Origin: a virus | DNA length: 20,506 nt | Direction: 5' to 3' (one strand) | IMG/VR virus record: IMGVR_UViG_3300032284_002275 | Location: 1 to 20,506 of that record | In this document: piece by piece, positions 7,007 to 20,153 of the stretch | How the letters are laid out: every line of letters begins with the position of its first letter | How positions within the stretch are numbered: the first letter of the stretch is position 1 | Position numbers and translations under genes: made by a program | Notes under the pieces: generated by a model | Databases searched by the model: none | The model's input: the letters and a program-made list of their open reading frames with translations, nothing else | Told to the model about the DNA's origin: nothing

Positions 7007-8800
7007 ATGGAAGATTATCTAGGTATTAAAATAGACTTGGAAAGAGATAAACTGTTTGATGAATTAGGAGTAAAAAGATTAAAAGAAAGCTACATGAGAG
7101 AAGATGAACAATCACCACAACACCGTTTCGCATTTGTTTCGAAAGCCTTTGGAACTAATATTGATCATTCTCAGAGATTGTATGATTACGCTAGCAAACA
7201 TTGGCTTAGTTATTCTACACCTATCCTTAGTTTTGGTCGTTCTAAACGTGGCCTTCCTATATCGTGCTTTCTCAATTATATTGAAGATACTGCTGAGGGT
7301 CTAGTTGATAATTTATCTGAAACTAATTGGTTATCTATGTTGGGTGGTGGCGTCGGCATTGGTTTTGGTATTCGCTCTGCTGATGACAAGTCTACGGGTG
7401 TTATGCCACACCTTAAAATATATGATGGATCTTCTTTGGCTTACCGCCAGGGTCGTACTCGTAGGGGTTCATATGCTGCCTATCTTGATATTTCTCATCC
7501 TGACATTATTCCTTTTTTAGAGATGCGTAAACCAACAGGAGATCAAAATCTTCGTTGTTTAAATTTACATCATGGTGTAAACATACCTGATTCTTTTATG
7601 CAAATCATTGAGAACTGTATGTTAGATCCAAATGCAAAAGATGATTGGCAATTGATTGATCCAGCATCAAATGAAGTAAGAGAGGTTGTGTCTGCTAAAC
7701 ATTTGTGGCAACAACTACTTGAAATTCGTATGCATACCGGTGAACCCTATTTGCATTTTATTGATACAAGCAATAGAGCATTGCCTCAATGGTTAAAAGA
7801 CAAAGGTTTAAAAGTAAATCAATCTAATTTATGTTCCGAAATTATATTACCAACTGATAAAGATAGAACAGCTGTTTGTTGTTTATCTTCAGTTAACTTA
7901 GAAGTATATGACGAATGGAAAAACGATAAATTATTTCTTAAAGACATGGCAGAAATGCTTGATAATGTGTTGCAGTATTTTATTGATAATGCACCTAAAC
8001 AAGTTGCTAGAGCAAAATATTCTGCAATGCGTGAGCGTAGTATTGGCGTTGGTGCTCTTGGTTTTCATGCTTACCTTCAGCGTAGCGGAATTCCTTTTGA
8101 GGGAGTTATGGCAAAAATTACAAACAAGCAAATATTTAAAAACATCAGAGAAAAATTAAATGAAGCAAACTTGCAATTGGGTAAAGAACGTGGCGAAGCA
8201 CCAGATGCTGTTGGTACTGGTTTTAGATTCTCTCATGTTATGGCAGTAGCACCTAATGCATCATCCTCTATTATTATGGGTAACACTTCTCCTAGTGTAG
8301 AACCATATCGTGCCAATGCTTATCGTCAAGATACTCTATCAGGTTCTTACTTAAATAAAAATCGTTGGTTAGATGAATTAATTATCAAATTATCAAATGA
8401 TAAACCAGAAGATTGGTATAACGATGTTTGGTCATCTATTATTGCTAACGATGGTTCGGTTCAACATTTAGATTGGATGTCAGAACACGACAAAGATGTA
8501 TTCAAAACGTCCATGGAAATAGACCAACGTTGGGTAATTGAATTAGCTGCTGATAGACAAGAATACATTGATCAGGCACAATCGCTAAATGTATTTTTTA
8601 GACCAACAGCTAGTATCAAGTACATTCATGCAATTCATTTCTTGGCATGGAAAAAAGGAGTTAAAACTCTCTATTATCTACGCTCAGAAAAAGCAGCAAA
8701 AGCGTATAAAGTATCTAAGAAAATTGAAAGACAGGTTATTAAAGAAATTGATATGACACAAATTGCACAAGGTAACGATTGTATAGCTTGCGAGGGATAA
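7007..8800 (+). CDS. nrdA: Ribonucleotide reductase class I, large (alpha) subunit
   Basis: This 597-residue protein reduces ribonucleoside diphosphates to deoxy forms, using a radical delivered by NrdB. Visible catalytic features are Cys87 (PISCFLN) and Cys291/292 as the candidate active-site redox partner, NLCSE with Asn274, Cys276 and Glu278, the radical-relay pair Tyr556-Tyr557 (TLYYLRS), and a C-terminal CIAC (Cys592, Cys595) for thioredoxin-type re-reduction. It is well short of E. coli NrdA (about 760): the N-terminal ATP-cone is absent and the protein starts directly with the alpha-subunit core. AAGGAAG precedes the ATG. iscU begins 1 nt after its stop. Confidence 0.96.
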   Translation: MEDYLGIKIDLERDKLFDELGVKRLKESYMREDEQSPQHRFAFVSKAFGTNIDHSQRLYDYASKHWLSYSTPILSFGRSKRGLPISCFLNYIEDTAEGLVDNLSETNWLSMLGGGVGIGFGIRSADDKSTGVMPHLKIYDGSSLAYRQGRTRRGSYAAYLDISHPDIIPFLEMRKPTGDQNLRCLNLHHGVNIPDSFMQIIENCMLDPNAKDDWQLIDPASNEVREVVSAKHLWQQLLEIRMHTGEPYLHFIDTSNRALPQWLKDKGLKVNQSNLCSEIILPTDKDRTAVCCLSSVNLEVYDEWKNDKLFLKDMAEMLDNVLQYFIDNAPKQVARAKYSAMRERSIGVGALGFHAYLQRSGIPFEGVMAKITNKQIFKNIREKLNEANLQLGKERGEAPDAVGTGFRFSHVMAVAPNASSSIIMGNTSPSVEPYRANAYRQDTLSGSYLNKNRWLDELIIKLSNDKPEDWYNDVWSSIIANDGSVQHLDWMSEHDKDVFKTSMEIDQRWVIELAADRQEYIDQAQSLNVFFRPTASIKYIHAIHFLAWKKGVKTLYYLRSEKAAKAYKVSKKIERQVIKEIDMTQIAQGNDCIACEG

Positions 8801-10521: not shown

Positions 10522-11504
10522 TTAAAAAAACAGATTACAAATTATCAGATAAAAGAGATACGTTTAAACCTTTTAATTATCCTTGGGCATATGATGCGTG
10601 GTTAAAACATGAACAATCTCATTGGTTACATACAGAAGTACCAATGGCAGAAGATGTAAAAGATTGGAAGAAGAAATTAAATGAAGCTGAGAAAAAATTC
10701 CTCACACACATTTTTCGTTTTTTTACTCAAGGAGATATTGATGTTGCTGGTGGTTATGTCAATAATTATTTACCTCATTTTCCCCAACCTGAAGTAAGAA
10801 TGATGTTACTTGGGTTTTCTGCTCGTGAAGCACTTCATGTAGCAGCATACTCACACCTTATTGAAACACTTGGTTTGCCTGAGACAATGTATAATGAGTT
10901 CTTAGAATATGCAGCCATGAAAGAGAAGCACGATTATATTCTCAACGAAGCAAACGGCGTTGTCAGTACATTTTCAACTGCAAGAAATATTGCTATGTTC
11001 TCTGCATTTACGGAAGGTATGCAATTGTTCTCCTCTTTCATTATGTTGCTAAACTTTCCAAGACATGGTAAGATGAAAGGCATGGGTCAAATCGTTACAT
11101 GGTCAATTGTTGATGAGACTATGCACACCGAAAACATGATTAAATTGTTTAGAACATTTATCAATGATAATCCAGAAATTTGGAATGATGAATTAAAAAG
11201 TGAAATATACACAATTGCGGAAAAAATGGTAGAATTAGAAGATAAGTTTATTGATCTAGCATTTGAAATGGGTCCAATGGAAGATTTAACATCAGAGGAT
11301 GTTAAGAAATACATTAGATATATTGCAGACCGCAGATTAATTTCATTAGGCCTTAAAGGCATATTTAAAGTAAAAAGAAATCCATTATCATGGGTTGAAG
11401 AAATGATTAACGCACCAACACATACCAATTTCTTTGAAAATAGAGCAACTGATTATGCAAAAGGCGCAACAACAGGAACTTGGAATGATGTATGGGCTCA
11501 TTAA
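10518..11504 (+). CDS. nrdB: Ribonucleotide reductase class I, small (beta) subunit
   Basis: This 328-residue protein holds the metal-radical cofactor that activates NrdA. I start it at ATG 10518, overlapping the thioredoxin stop, rather than at an in-frame TTG 12 nt earlier. The ligand pattern is intact: REALHVAAY gives Glu104, His107 and the radical Tyr111; TEGMQLFSSF gives Glu166; and VDETMHTE gives Glu200 and His203. The first carboxylate is probably Asp73 or Asp75 in QGDIDVAGG. The retained Tyr argues for a class Ia-type di-iron or dimanganese tyrosyl radical. The C-terminus ends NDVWAH. Confidence 0.95.
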   Translation: MIKKTDYKLSDKRDTFKPFNYPWAYDAWLKHEQSHWLHTEVPMAEDVKDWKKKLNEAEKKFLTHIFRFFTQGDIDVAGGYVNNYLPHFPQPEVRMMLLGFSAREALHVAAYSHLIETLGLPETMYNEFLEYAAMKEKHDYILNEANGVVSTFSTARNIAMFSAFTEGMQLFSSFIMLLNFPRHGKMKGMGQIVTWSIVDETMHTENMIKLFRTFINDNPEIWNDELKSEIYTIAEKMVELEDKFIDLAFEMGPMEDLTSEDVKKYIRYIADRRLISLGLKGIFKVKRNPLSWVEEMINAPTHTNFFENRATDYAKGATTGTWNDVWAH

Positions 11505-12199
11505 TATACACTTTGATAGTAACACATATAACAATTATGTGTGTTACAATTTATTTACATAGAGGACAAGCACACAAATCCTTAGAGTTTGATCCTCGGT
11601 TAGAATCTATAATAAGATTTTGGTTATGGTTAACAACTGGAATGGTCACGAAGCAATGGGTTGCAGTACACCGTAAACACCATGCATTTACTGATAGAGA
11701 TGGCGATCCACACTCACCTGTACTTTATGGATTGCGTGATATTCTATTTGGCGGTGTCACTTATTATGCACAAGCGGCAAGAGATGAAAAAATGGTTGAA
11801 CAATTTGGTGCCGGAACACCTGATGACTGGATAGAAAAGAATATATATACTAGATTTCCATTTACCGGTGTTGTATTGACGTTAATTATTGATGCACTTT
11901 TATTTGGTCAAATTGGAGTATTGATTTGGTTAATTCAAATGATTTGGATTCCATTTTGGGCTGCAGGTGTAATCAATGGTGTTGGTCATCATCTAGGCTA
12001 TAGAAACTGGACAACAAAAGATCACTCTACAAATATTGTGCCTTGGGGTATTATTATTGGTGGTGAAGAACTACATAATAATCATCACAATAAACCAGCA
12101 AGTCCTAAATTATCAAATAAATGGTATGAGTTTGATGTTGGTTGGATGTGGATCAAAATTTTTGAAAAATTTAATTTAATAAAAATAAAAAAGGAATGA
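11492..12199 (+). CDS. Membrane fatty-acid desaturase
   Basis: This 235-residue integral membrane di-iron desaturase has all three His boxes: HRGQAH (His23, His28), HRKHH (His60, His63, His64) and HNNHH (His195, His198, His199), plus GVGHHLGYRN. Hydrophobic segments precede and separate them, for example LIYTLIVTHITIMCV and GVVLTLIIDALLFGQIGVLIW. It would introduce a double bond into acyl chains, probably at the delta-9 position, and so change host membrane fluidity. The start overlaps the nrdB 3' end by 13 nt. It is shorter at the N-terminus than typical bacterial enzymes. Desaturase genes are known in some T4-like cyanophages. Confidence 0.9.
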   Translation: MGSLIYTLIVTHITIMCVTIYLHRGQAHKSLEFDPRLESIIRFWLWLTTGMVTKQWVAVHRKHHAFTDRDGDPHSPVLYGLRDILFGGVTYYAQAARDEKMVEQFGAGTPDDWIEKNIYTRFPFTGVVLTLIIDALLFGQIGVLIWLIQMIWIPFWAAGVINGVGHHLGYRNWTTKDHSTNIVPWGIIIGGEELHNNHHNKPASPKLSNKWYEFDVGWMWIKIFEKFNLIKIKKE

Positions 12200-19409: not shown

Positions 19410-19662
19410 AGAAGCAAGAAGCCAGATTCCTGGTGTAATTTTTGACCAGTTATTCAAGAGGATGCAGAAATCCAAACTATGGACGATAAAATGTCGTTTG
19501 GATGACTCATATCCTCTTAAAAAGATACCAAATTTTTCTTTTATACTTGAAGAAGAAGGCATTTTTATATGCAAAGTTGTTGCGGATTCACTAGAAAAAG
19601 CAAAAGAAATTATTTTAGAACAGCTACCAGTTGAGGAATTCTTAGAAAATGGAAATGAATGA
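19399..19662 (+). CDS. Hypothetical protein
   Basis: This 87-residue protein overlaps the preceding gene by 11 nt. It looks like a compact alpha/beta fold (WTIKCRLDD, FSFILEEEGIFICKVVADS, then a helix KAKEIILEQL). No motif or family is recognised. The 3' end overlaps the MazG-like gene by 14 nt, suggesting coupled translation. Confidence 0.65.
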   Translation: MSNREARSQIPGVIFDQLFKRMQKSKLWTIKCRLDDSYPLKKIPNFSFILEEEGIFICKVVADSLEKAKEIILEQLPVEEFLENGNE

Positions 19663-19921
19663 TAAAACAAAAGAGGCAATGCTGATATTGCAAGAGGAAT
19701 GTGCTGAAGTTGCTCAGGCAATATCAAAAGTCTTTAGGTTTGGTATTGATACTGTACACAATATGAACTCAAATCGGCAAAGGTTAGAGGAAGAAATCGG
19801 TGACCTTCTTGCCATGGTTGACATACTAATTGAAAGTAGTATAATATCAGATAGTAATGTCAACGAAGCAAGAAAGAACAAAAAGAACAAACTTAGAAAA
19901 TGGTCGTCAATCTACAATTAG
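19649..19921 (+). CDS. MazG-like nucleotide pyrophosphohydrolase
   Basis: This 90-residue all-helical protein has the MazG/dUTPase-superfamily metal motif: LQEECAE (Glu16, Glu17, Glu20) and LEEEIGDLLAMVD (Glu49 to Asp52). Such enzymes hydrolyse (d)NTPs or related nucleotides to monophosphates. Phage MazG has been proposed to alter host nucleotide or alarmone pools. It is a single-domain, short form. ATG 19655 is an alternative start. GAGGA lies about 11 nt upstream. Its stop overlaps by 4 nt the stop of the - strand gene. Confidence 0.85.
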   Translation: MEMNDKTKEAMLILQEECAEVAQAISKVFRFGIDTVHNMNSNRQRLEEEIGDLLAMVDILIESSIISDSNVNEARKNKKNKLRKWSSIYN

Positions 19922-20094
19922 AATGATTTCTTTTTATACTCATAGTCACGAATCATGTTTTCAATATCAGCGGCACTTTTTGGTGCTCTTGATTCAATGT
20001 ATGCTTCAAGACCGTTTCTTGCATAACCATCAGCTTTGATTCTGACATATACGACACCGGCGATTAAAACTAAGGTTAGAATAGTAAGTAACAT
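19918..20094 (-). CDS. 58-residue membrane-anchored protein on the opposite strand
   Basis: Read on the - strand, ATG at 20094-20092 opens a 58-residue frame ending TAA at 19920-19918. AAGGAG (20109-20104) lies 9 nt before the start, as strong as any in the window. The protein has an N-terminal membrane helix (MLLTILTLVLIAGVVYV) and a charged cytosolic tail (RAPKSAADIENMIRDYEYKKK). It is the only - strand gene I can support and fills the single sizeable gap on the + strand. A T4-type late promoter lies directly upstream. No family is recognised. Confidence 0.72.
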   Translation of the reverse strand: MLLTILTLVLIAGVVYVRIKADGYARNGLEAYIESRAPKSAADIENMIRDYEYKKKSF

Positions 20095-20103
20095 TTTAAA
20101 AAA

Positions 20104-20109
20104 CTCCTT
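20104..20109 (-). promoter_or_regulatory. Ribosome binding site of the - strand gene
   Basis: AAGGAG on the - strand is 9 nt from ATG 20094. It decides the start and is the best single argument that the short frame is translated. Confidence 0.75.
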
Positions 20110-20132
20110 TTTATTAGTGTTTCTACTATTAG

Positions 20133-20140
20133 TATTTATA
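20133..20140 (-). promoter_or_regulatory. T4-type late promoter box TATAAATA
   Basis: The - strand carries exactly TATAAATA, the T4 late-promoter -10 element recognised by gp55 (established for T4). It lies 38 nt upstream of ATG 20094, leaving room for a short leader with the AAGGAG site. No -35 box is present at sigma70 spacing, as expected for a late promoter. Confidence 0.65.
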
Positions 20141-20153
20141 CTGAAAGAAAATT

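Follow-up and report, generated by a model that had tools for sequence, protein, structure and literature searches.

The closest described counterpart of the element reported here is the T4-type late promoter (TATAAATA, served by the gp55 sigma), whose form in the T4-like cyanophage S-PM2 is NATAAATA (PMC2984593). Two further arrangements described in such phages bear on the locus: the antisense RNA CfrI of S-PM2, about 225 nt long, links psbA and a homing endonuclease gene, and early and late promoters overlap in RB49 and S-PM2 (PMC2984593). We analyzed a 20,506-base virus record (the window, meaning this whole stretch of DNA) that is probably a fragment of a T4-like phage genome. As at a T4-type late promoter, an exact box lies 38 nt before the start codon of a small leftward gene with a Shine-Dalgarno sequence, there is no -35 conservation, and a gp55-type sigma is encoded in element-bearing relatives. 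Unlike such a promoter, the locus has its box embedded in a 16-24 nt element whose entire length is conserved, and the box is missing from most relatives. As with CfrI, opposite-strand transcription in a T4-like phage is possible at the small gene too, but here a conserved protein gene is involved and the neighbours vary. The RB49 and S-PM2 arrangement has its likeness in hsp20 promoters of related contigs, which carry TATAAATA between TTGACA and TATAAT, whereas no sigma-70 match accompanies the promoter of the small gene on its own strand. The features of the locus are listed in Table 1.

Table 1. Features at the small-gene locus, in window coordinates.
Feature	Position	Strand	Remark
MazG-like gene, convergent	19649..19921	+	stop overlaps small-gene stop by 4 nt
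Perfect sigma-70 match TTGACA-16-TATAAT, inside MazG-like gene	19818..19845	+	predicted promoter pointing rightward through small gene
Small gene, 58 aa, ATG start (MLLTILTLVLIAGVVYVRIKADGYARNGLEAYIESRAPKSAADIENMIRDYEYKKKSF)	19918..20094	-	hydrophobic N-terminal helix, conserved helix-turn-helix tail
Shine-Dalgarno AAGGAG	20104..20109	-	9 nt before small-gene ATG
Second direct core copy AGTAGAAACACTAATA	20112..20127	-	15 nt downstream of first; same 15-nt period in relatives
Conserved core AGTATAAATACTAATA, T form	20127..20142	-	sequence conservation
TATAAATA, exact T4-type late box inside conserved core	20133..20140	-	38 nt before small-gene ATG
Right-hand gene, divergent, 116 aa	20154..20504	+	sequence-related to right-hand neighbour in 12 other loci

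The VWA/peptidase gene of the window belongs to PHROG_459 (E 7.7e-183), and its annotated relatives, at about 35-37% identity, are from T4-like cyanophages and pelagiphages. Elsewhere the window encodes the large subunit of a class I ribonucleotide reductase (7007-8800), a NifU-N (IscU-like) protein beside an Fe-S biosynthesis (IscA-like) gene, here in a phage (8802-9505), and a fatty acid desaturase (11492-12199).

A preliminary description of the window had proposed that its lone minus-strand ORF encodes a membrane-anchored protein under a T4 late promoter, and that leftward late transcription silences the MazG-like and VWA genes. The ORF, its AAGGAG, the overlap of its stop with that of the MazG-like gene and the exact late box are all present where that description placed them. 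We fetched 80 contigs with the VWA protein alone, neither the small gene nor its promoter guiding the choice. A small ORF with the same tail motif was found in 32 of the 80, each time with the element upstream, on the strand opposite the VWA/peptidase gene and 0.65-5.6 kb beyond the VWA end. The reading frame is thus kept in relatives, changes between them fall mostly at third codon positions, and dN/dS is mostly 0.05-0.4 (one pair reaches 0.81). On these substitution patterns the small gene is under purifying selection. The conserved tail motif, this selection and the pairing of element and gene among VWA loci rule out an ORF arising by chance.

Alignment of 23 diverse members defines a first family (family I) by the motif LExYIxSKxP....DVERLxREY, in which Tyr32 and Pro38 are invariant and E30, I33 and R49 nearly so. 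The membrane anchor claimed for the 58-residue protein is backed by hydropathy (mean 2.39 over residues 1-19), but many relatives have an N-terminal helix that seems to be amphipathic rather than transmembrane. The structural model predicts helices at residues 2-36 and 41-57 (mean pLDDT 79, pTM 0.46). The small protein gave no significant match in Pfam, PHROGs, NCBIfam, PADLOC or PDB sequences and no tblastn match among 50,697 annotated phages, and a fold search of BFVD returned nothing below E 0.001. A second family (family II), with proteins of 37-39 aa, shares the leader and has a comparable N-terminal helix (MKLLKSIY.FL), followed by the tail AKYAANLARNGKIKEAQALYR. What is constant between the two families is the leader and the membrane-type N-terminus, and protein length across them is 37-62 aa. 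At six loci (L009, L032, L046, L064, L095 and L100) the leader and N-terminal helix precede AKYAANLARNGKIKEAQALYR, an unrelated tail, as though one C-terminal module had replaced another. Judged from these comparisons, the small gene is genuine and belongs to a new family of very small phage proteins with a predicted membrane anchor.

The upstream element has a 16-nt core, AGTATAAA[C/T]ACTAATA, which or a near copy of which precedes the start codon in all relatives; its majority form is TATAAACA, and it is usually extended to a near-invariant 24-mer. At 33 sites (class A) the conserved block runs from -8 to +15 (TATATATTAGTATAAACACTAATA) at 1.3-1.8 bits per position with little conservation outside; some of these 33 were fetched by the pattern itself, and the VWA-fetched loci show the same block. 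In the window AGTATAAAYACTAATA occurs as two tandem copies 15 nt apart. This arrangement is beyond chance: allowing up to 2 mismatches, 2 copies were found where 0.06 were expected, and none of 100 shuffles contained two. The box TATAAATA alone is not beyond chance in the window (2 found, 3.2 expected from shuffles). In relatives a second half-site often follows 15 nt after the core. Viewed as a whole the element is a near-palindrome, TATTAGT-N6-ACTAATA, with a left half-site that varies (TTAGT, CTAGT, TAAGT). The length of the leader and the stretch after the element vary freely. Across the sequences compared, distant phages differ much less in the element than in the small protein: the 24 positions of the element hardly change even where identity of the neighbouring VWA protein has dropped to about 45-49%.

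Element and gene are tightly linked. Among the 80 VWA loci both occurred together in 32, the element only in 1, the gene only in 0 and neither in 47 (0 expected by chance). The element is found once per locus, directly before the small gene; at the sole element-only locus, L055, a 29-codon ORF (MKLVILIKQFLDAYIEARKDYFKKYHLWY) lies behind it. A scan of the whole collection for the element identified 71 stretches, of which 49 were automatically classed as having a family I or II ORF after it and about 10 more were assigned to such ORFs by reading; the remainder lie at hsp20, at a phasin-like gene or at a few sites that look like chance occurrences. A scan with the 14-mer TATAAACACTAATA was too short to be informative, its matches being mostly due to chance. 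At the hsp20 promoters of L258 (1496-1530; G017), L214, L241 and L282, and at the promoter of the phasin-like gene of L289, we observed the palindrome TTAGTATAAATACTAA or a near copy, mostly between TTGACA and a TATAAT-like box, that is, in the sigma-70 spacer. The hsp20 and phasin-like genes also share the leader AACTCGCTTAAC-AAGGAG. From their layout these could be early promoters overlapped by late ones, or possibly a small regulon. Separately, a recurring leader in which a hairpin could form, GTTGTATAAATA...GGCAACCATAGTGTGTTGC, precedes a DUF6267 gene (about 396 aa) in L210 (13403-14593; G007 73403) and seven other contigs. In 84,980 bacterial and archaeal genomes the element is essentially absent, with 2 isolated matches, which rules out a host operator. 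We also rejected a replication origin, since neither in G007 nor in the window does GC skew switch at the element, and a promoter for a T7-like single-subunit polymerase (CACTAATAaGGA resembles CACTATAGGGA), no fetched stretch having more than one match in the collection scan. Eight loci (L010, L012, L013, L019, L033, L054, L056 and L064) have a divergent gene with the protein start MTTFT[TS]EDR; 36-37 nt separate its beginning from the element, which must therefore overlap the upstream region of that gene.

We then considered the late promoter. In this phage group the late box takes the form NATAAATA, in agreement with the S-PM2 consensus (PMC2984593), and shows enrichment ahead of genes on their coding strand, with sense/antisense counts of 22/0 for GATAAATA, 12/0 for CATAAATA, 7/0 for AATAAATA and 21/5 for TATAAATA. 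Contigs G004, G007, G016 and G017, the last three of which bear the element, encode a late sigma of the gp55 type (PHROG_234; E 2.2e-60 in G004); the window, a 20.5-kb fragment, contains no match to it. Given this enrichment and the sigma in relatives, TATAAATA in the window is a credible late box, and late (gp55) expression of the small gene is plausible there. The promoter claim of the preliminary description therefore stands in part: the exact box is rightly placed and gp55 occurs in relatives, but the box is absent from most of them. It occurs only in the T form of the core, in a minority of 11 out of 45 loci, and in the other 34 no NATAAATA lies within 130 nt of the start codon. It follows from these 34 loci that, as far as the compared sequences go, a late promoter is not a family-wide feature of the small gene. 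Since the TATATATT of the majority form also shows no enrichment upstream of other genes in the phage group, that form is no ordinary late promoter. Only 8 bases are required for a late box, and the near-invariant 24-mer implies a constraint beyond it.

One explanation of that constraint is that the element is an operator or promoter for another phage factor, not gp55, and that TATAAATA in the window is a by-product of a single C-to-T change in the core. The prevalence of TATAAACA, the 24 near-invariant positions, the near-palindrome with extra half-sites at a 15-nt period and the presence of TTAGTATAAATACTAA within the sigma-70 spacer of the phasin-like promoter and, in several related contigs, of hsp20 promoters would all be consistent with such a factor. 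However, no candidate for it was found, and the left half-site is variable. In addition, TATATA stands directly upstream of the core in 33 C-form loci and is missing from 2, as against 2 with and 8 without among T-form loci (Fisher p 8.5e-6, uncorrected for phylogeny), as if the box had moved in the T form. A need for a TATA-type box at either of two places in the promoter would fit this pattern, drawn as it is from loci that are not independent. We therefore regard the other-factor explanation as a serious but rather unlikely one. A more specific version, in which the 24-nt element would be the site of a phage transcription mode other than early or gp55-late serving one gene per genome, and some lineages including the window would have been converted to a gp55 late promoter by one C-to-T change, seems to us improbable.

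The constraint might also act on the RNA, the leader being a translational control element or a 5' hairpin. The last ACUAAUA of the leader often touches the Shine-Dalgarno sequence, 5' hairpins are predicted for L001 (z -6.2), L037 (z -2.5) and L010-type leaders (z -2.3), and in the L035-L077 clade, read by eye, CAC/GUG pairs are exchanged for UAC/GUA. Nevertheless, no fold is predicted for the leader of the window (z -0.2) or for the short leader of class A, which lacks structure, the free variation in leader length and in the part after the element does not suit a structured RNA, and the lack of an Rfam match rules out a known RNA family. This makes control at the RNA level quite doubtful.

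As for antisense transcription, no intrinsic terminator was found on either strand between the small gene and the MazG-like gene, as the preliminary description had noted. Across loci with a called neighbour the convergent stops are mostly -18 to +45 nt apart with hardly any terminator between them, and firing of both promoters would probably yield transcripts that overlap. On this layout antisense overlap is physically possible, equally in either direction. That leftward late transcription mainly makes antisense RNA silencing the MazG-like and VWA genes would find support in these abutting stops and in the precedent of CfrI in S-PM2 (PMC2984593), but the left neighbours of the small gene in 29 loci fall into 13 families, being MazG-like in only 3 loci, the VWA gene lies at the distance given above, selection acts on the small protein, and in L001 the gene directly after the small gene is co-directional, leaving no convergent target there. 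Because the left neighbour varies while the small protein is conserved, silencing of MazG and VWA cannot be the conserved purpose. In the loci compared there is no fixed antisense target under selection, and we consider such silencing very unlikely.

We also considered the opposite direction. Near-consensus sigma-70 promoters in these loci number 119 rightward versus 15 leftward, and within 1.5 kb of the element there is no leftward one. Early promoters lie to the left of the element in 21 of 29 loci where 14.7 were expected, a slight excess to which we attach no weight. Given the rightward bias and the perfect match inside the MazG-like gene, early rightward transcription keeping the small gene off until late would fit at least as well as silencing of the neighbours. 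A related possibility is a pair resembling a type I toxin-antitoxin system, in which a small hydrophobic peptide is held down by the overlapping rightward RNA. The length of 37-62 aa, the hydrophobic helix and the opposing transcription would suit it; on the other hand, a conserved hydrophilic tail under strong selection is unusual for type I toxins, and we found no dedicated antisense promoter inside the gene, the opposing sigma-70 match sitting in the neighbouring gene. We give this possibility scarcely any credence. We favour instead a membrane-anchored effector that would be kept off early.

Taken as a whole, the best explanation, which we hold tentatively and at slightly under even confidence, is that a phage-specific promoter/leader drives a late, membrane-targeted small protein that is held low early. 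The element would drive the leftward gene, whose product would combine a membrane-targeting helix at the N-terminus with a short, conserved tail in the cytosol. In the window the promoter part, with its exact T4-type box, would direct gp55-dependent late transcription, starting near 20126-20128 if T4 spacing applies. Early in infection the small gene would be antisense to rightward sigma-70 transcription and so kept low; late in infection the direction of transcription at this spot would reverse. The small protein would then most likely act at the inner membrane, and its two likeliest roles may be lysis timing or exclusion of a second phage.

In all, these comparisons identify a new small phage protein family with an unusually constant, phage-specific leader element, in which a shared N-terminal helix is followed by one of at least two alternative tails. 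A late promoter is a credible reading in the window and a conjectural one for the family. The family has been missed by existing annotation and is uncharacterised, and the element provides a signal that can be tested. Such a constant non-coding element before one tiny gene would mark a regulatory event that these phages cannot vary. The idea put forward in the preliminary description is thereby turned round: early backward transcription may hold a late membrane protein off.
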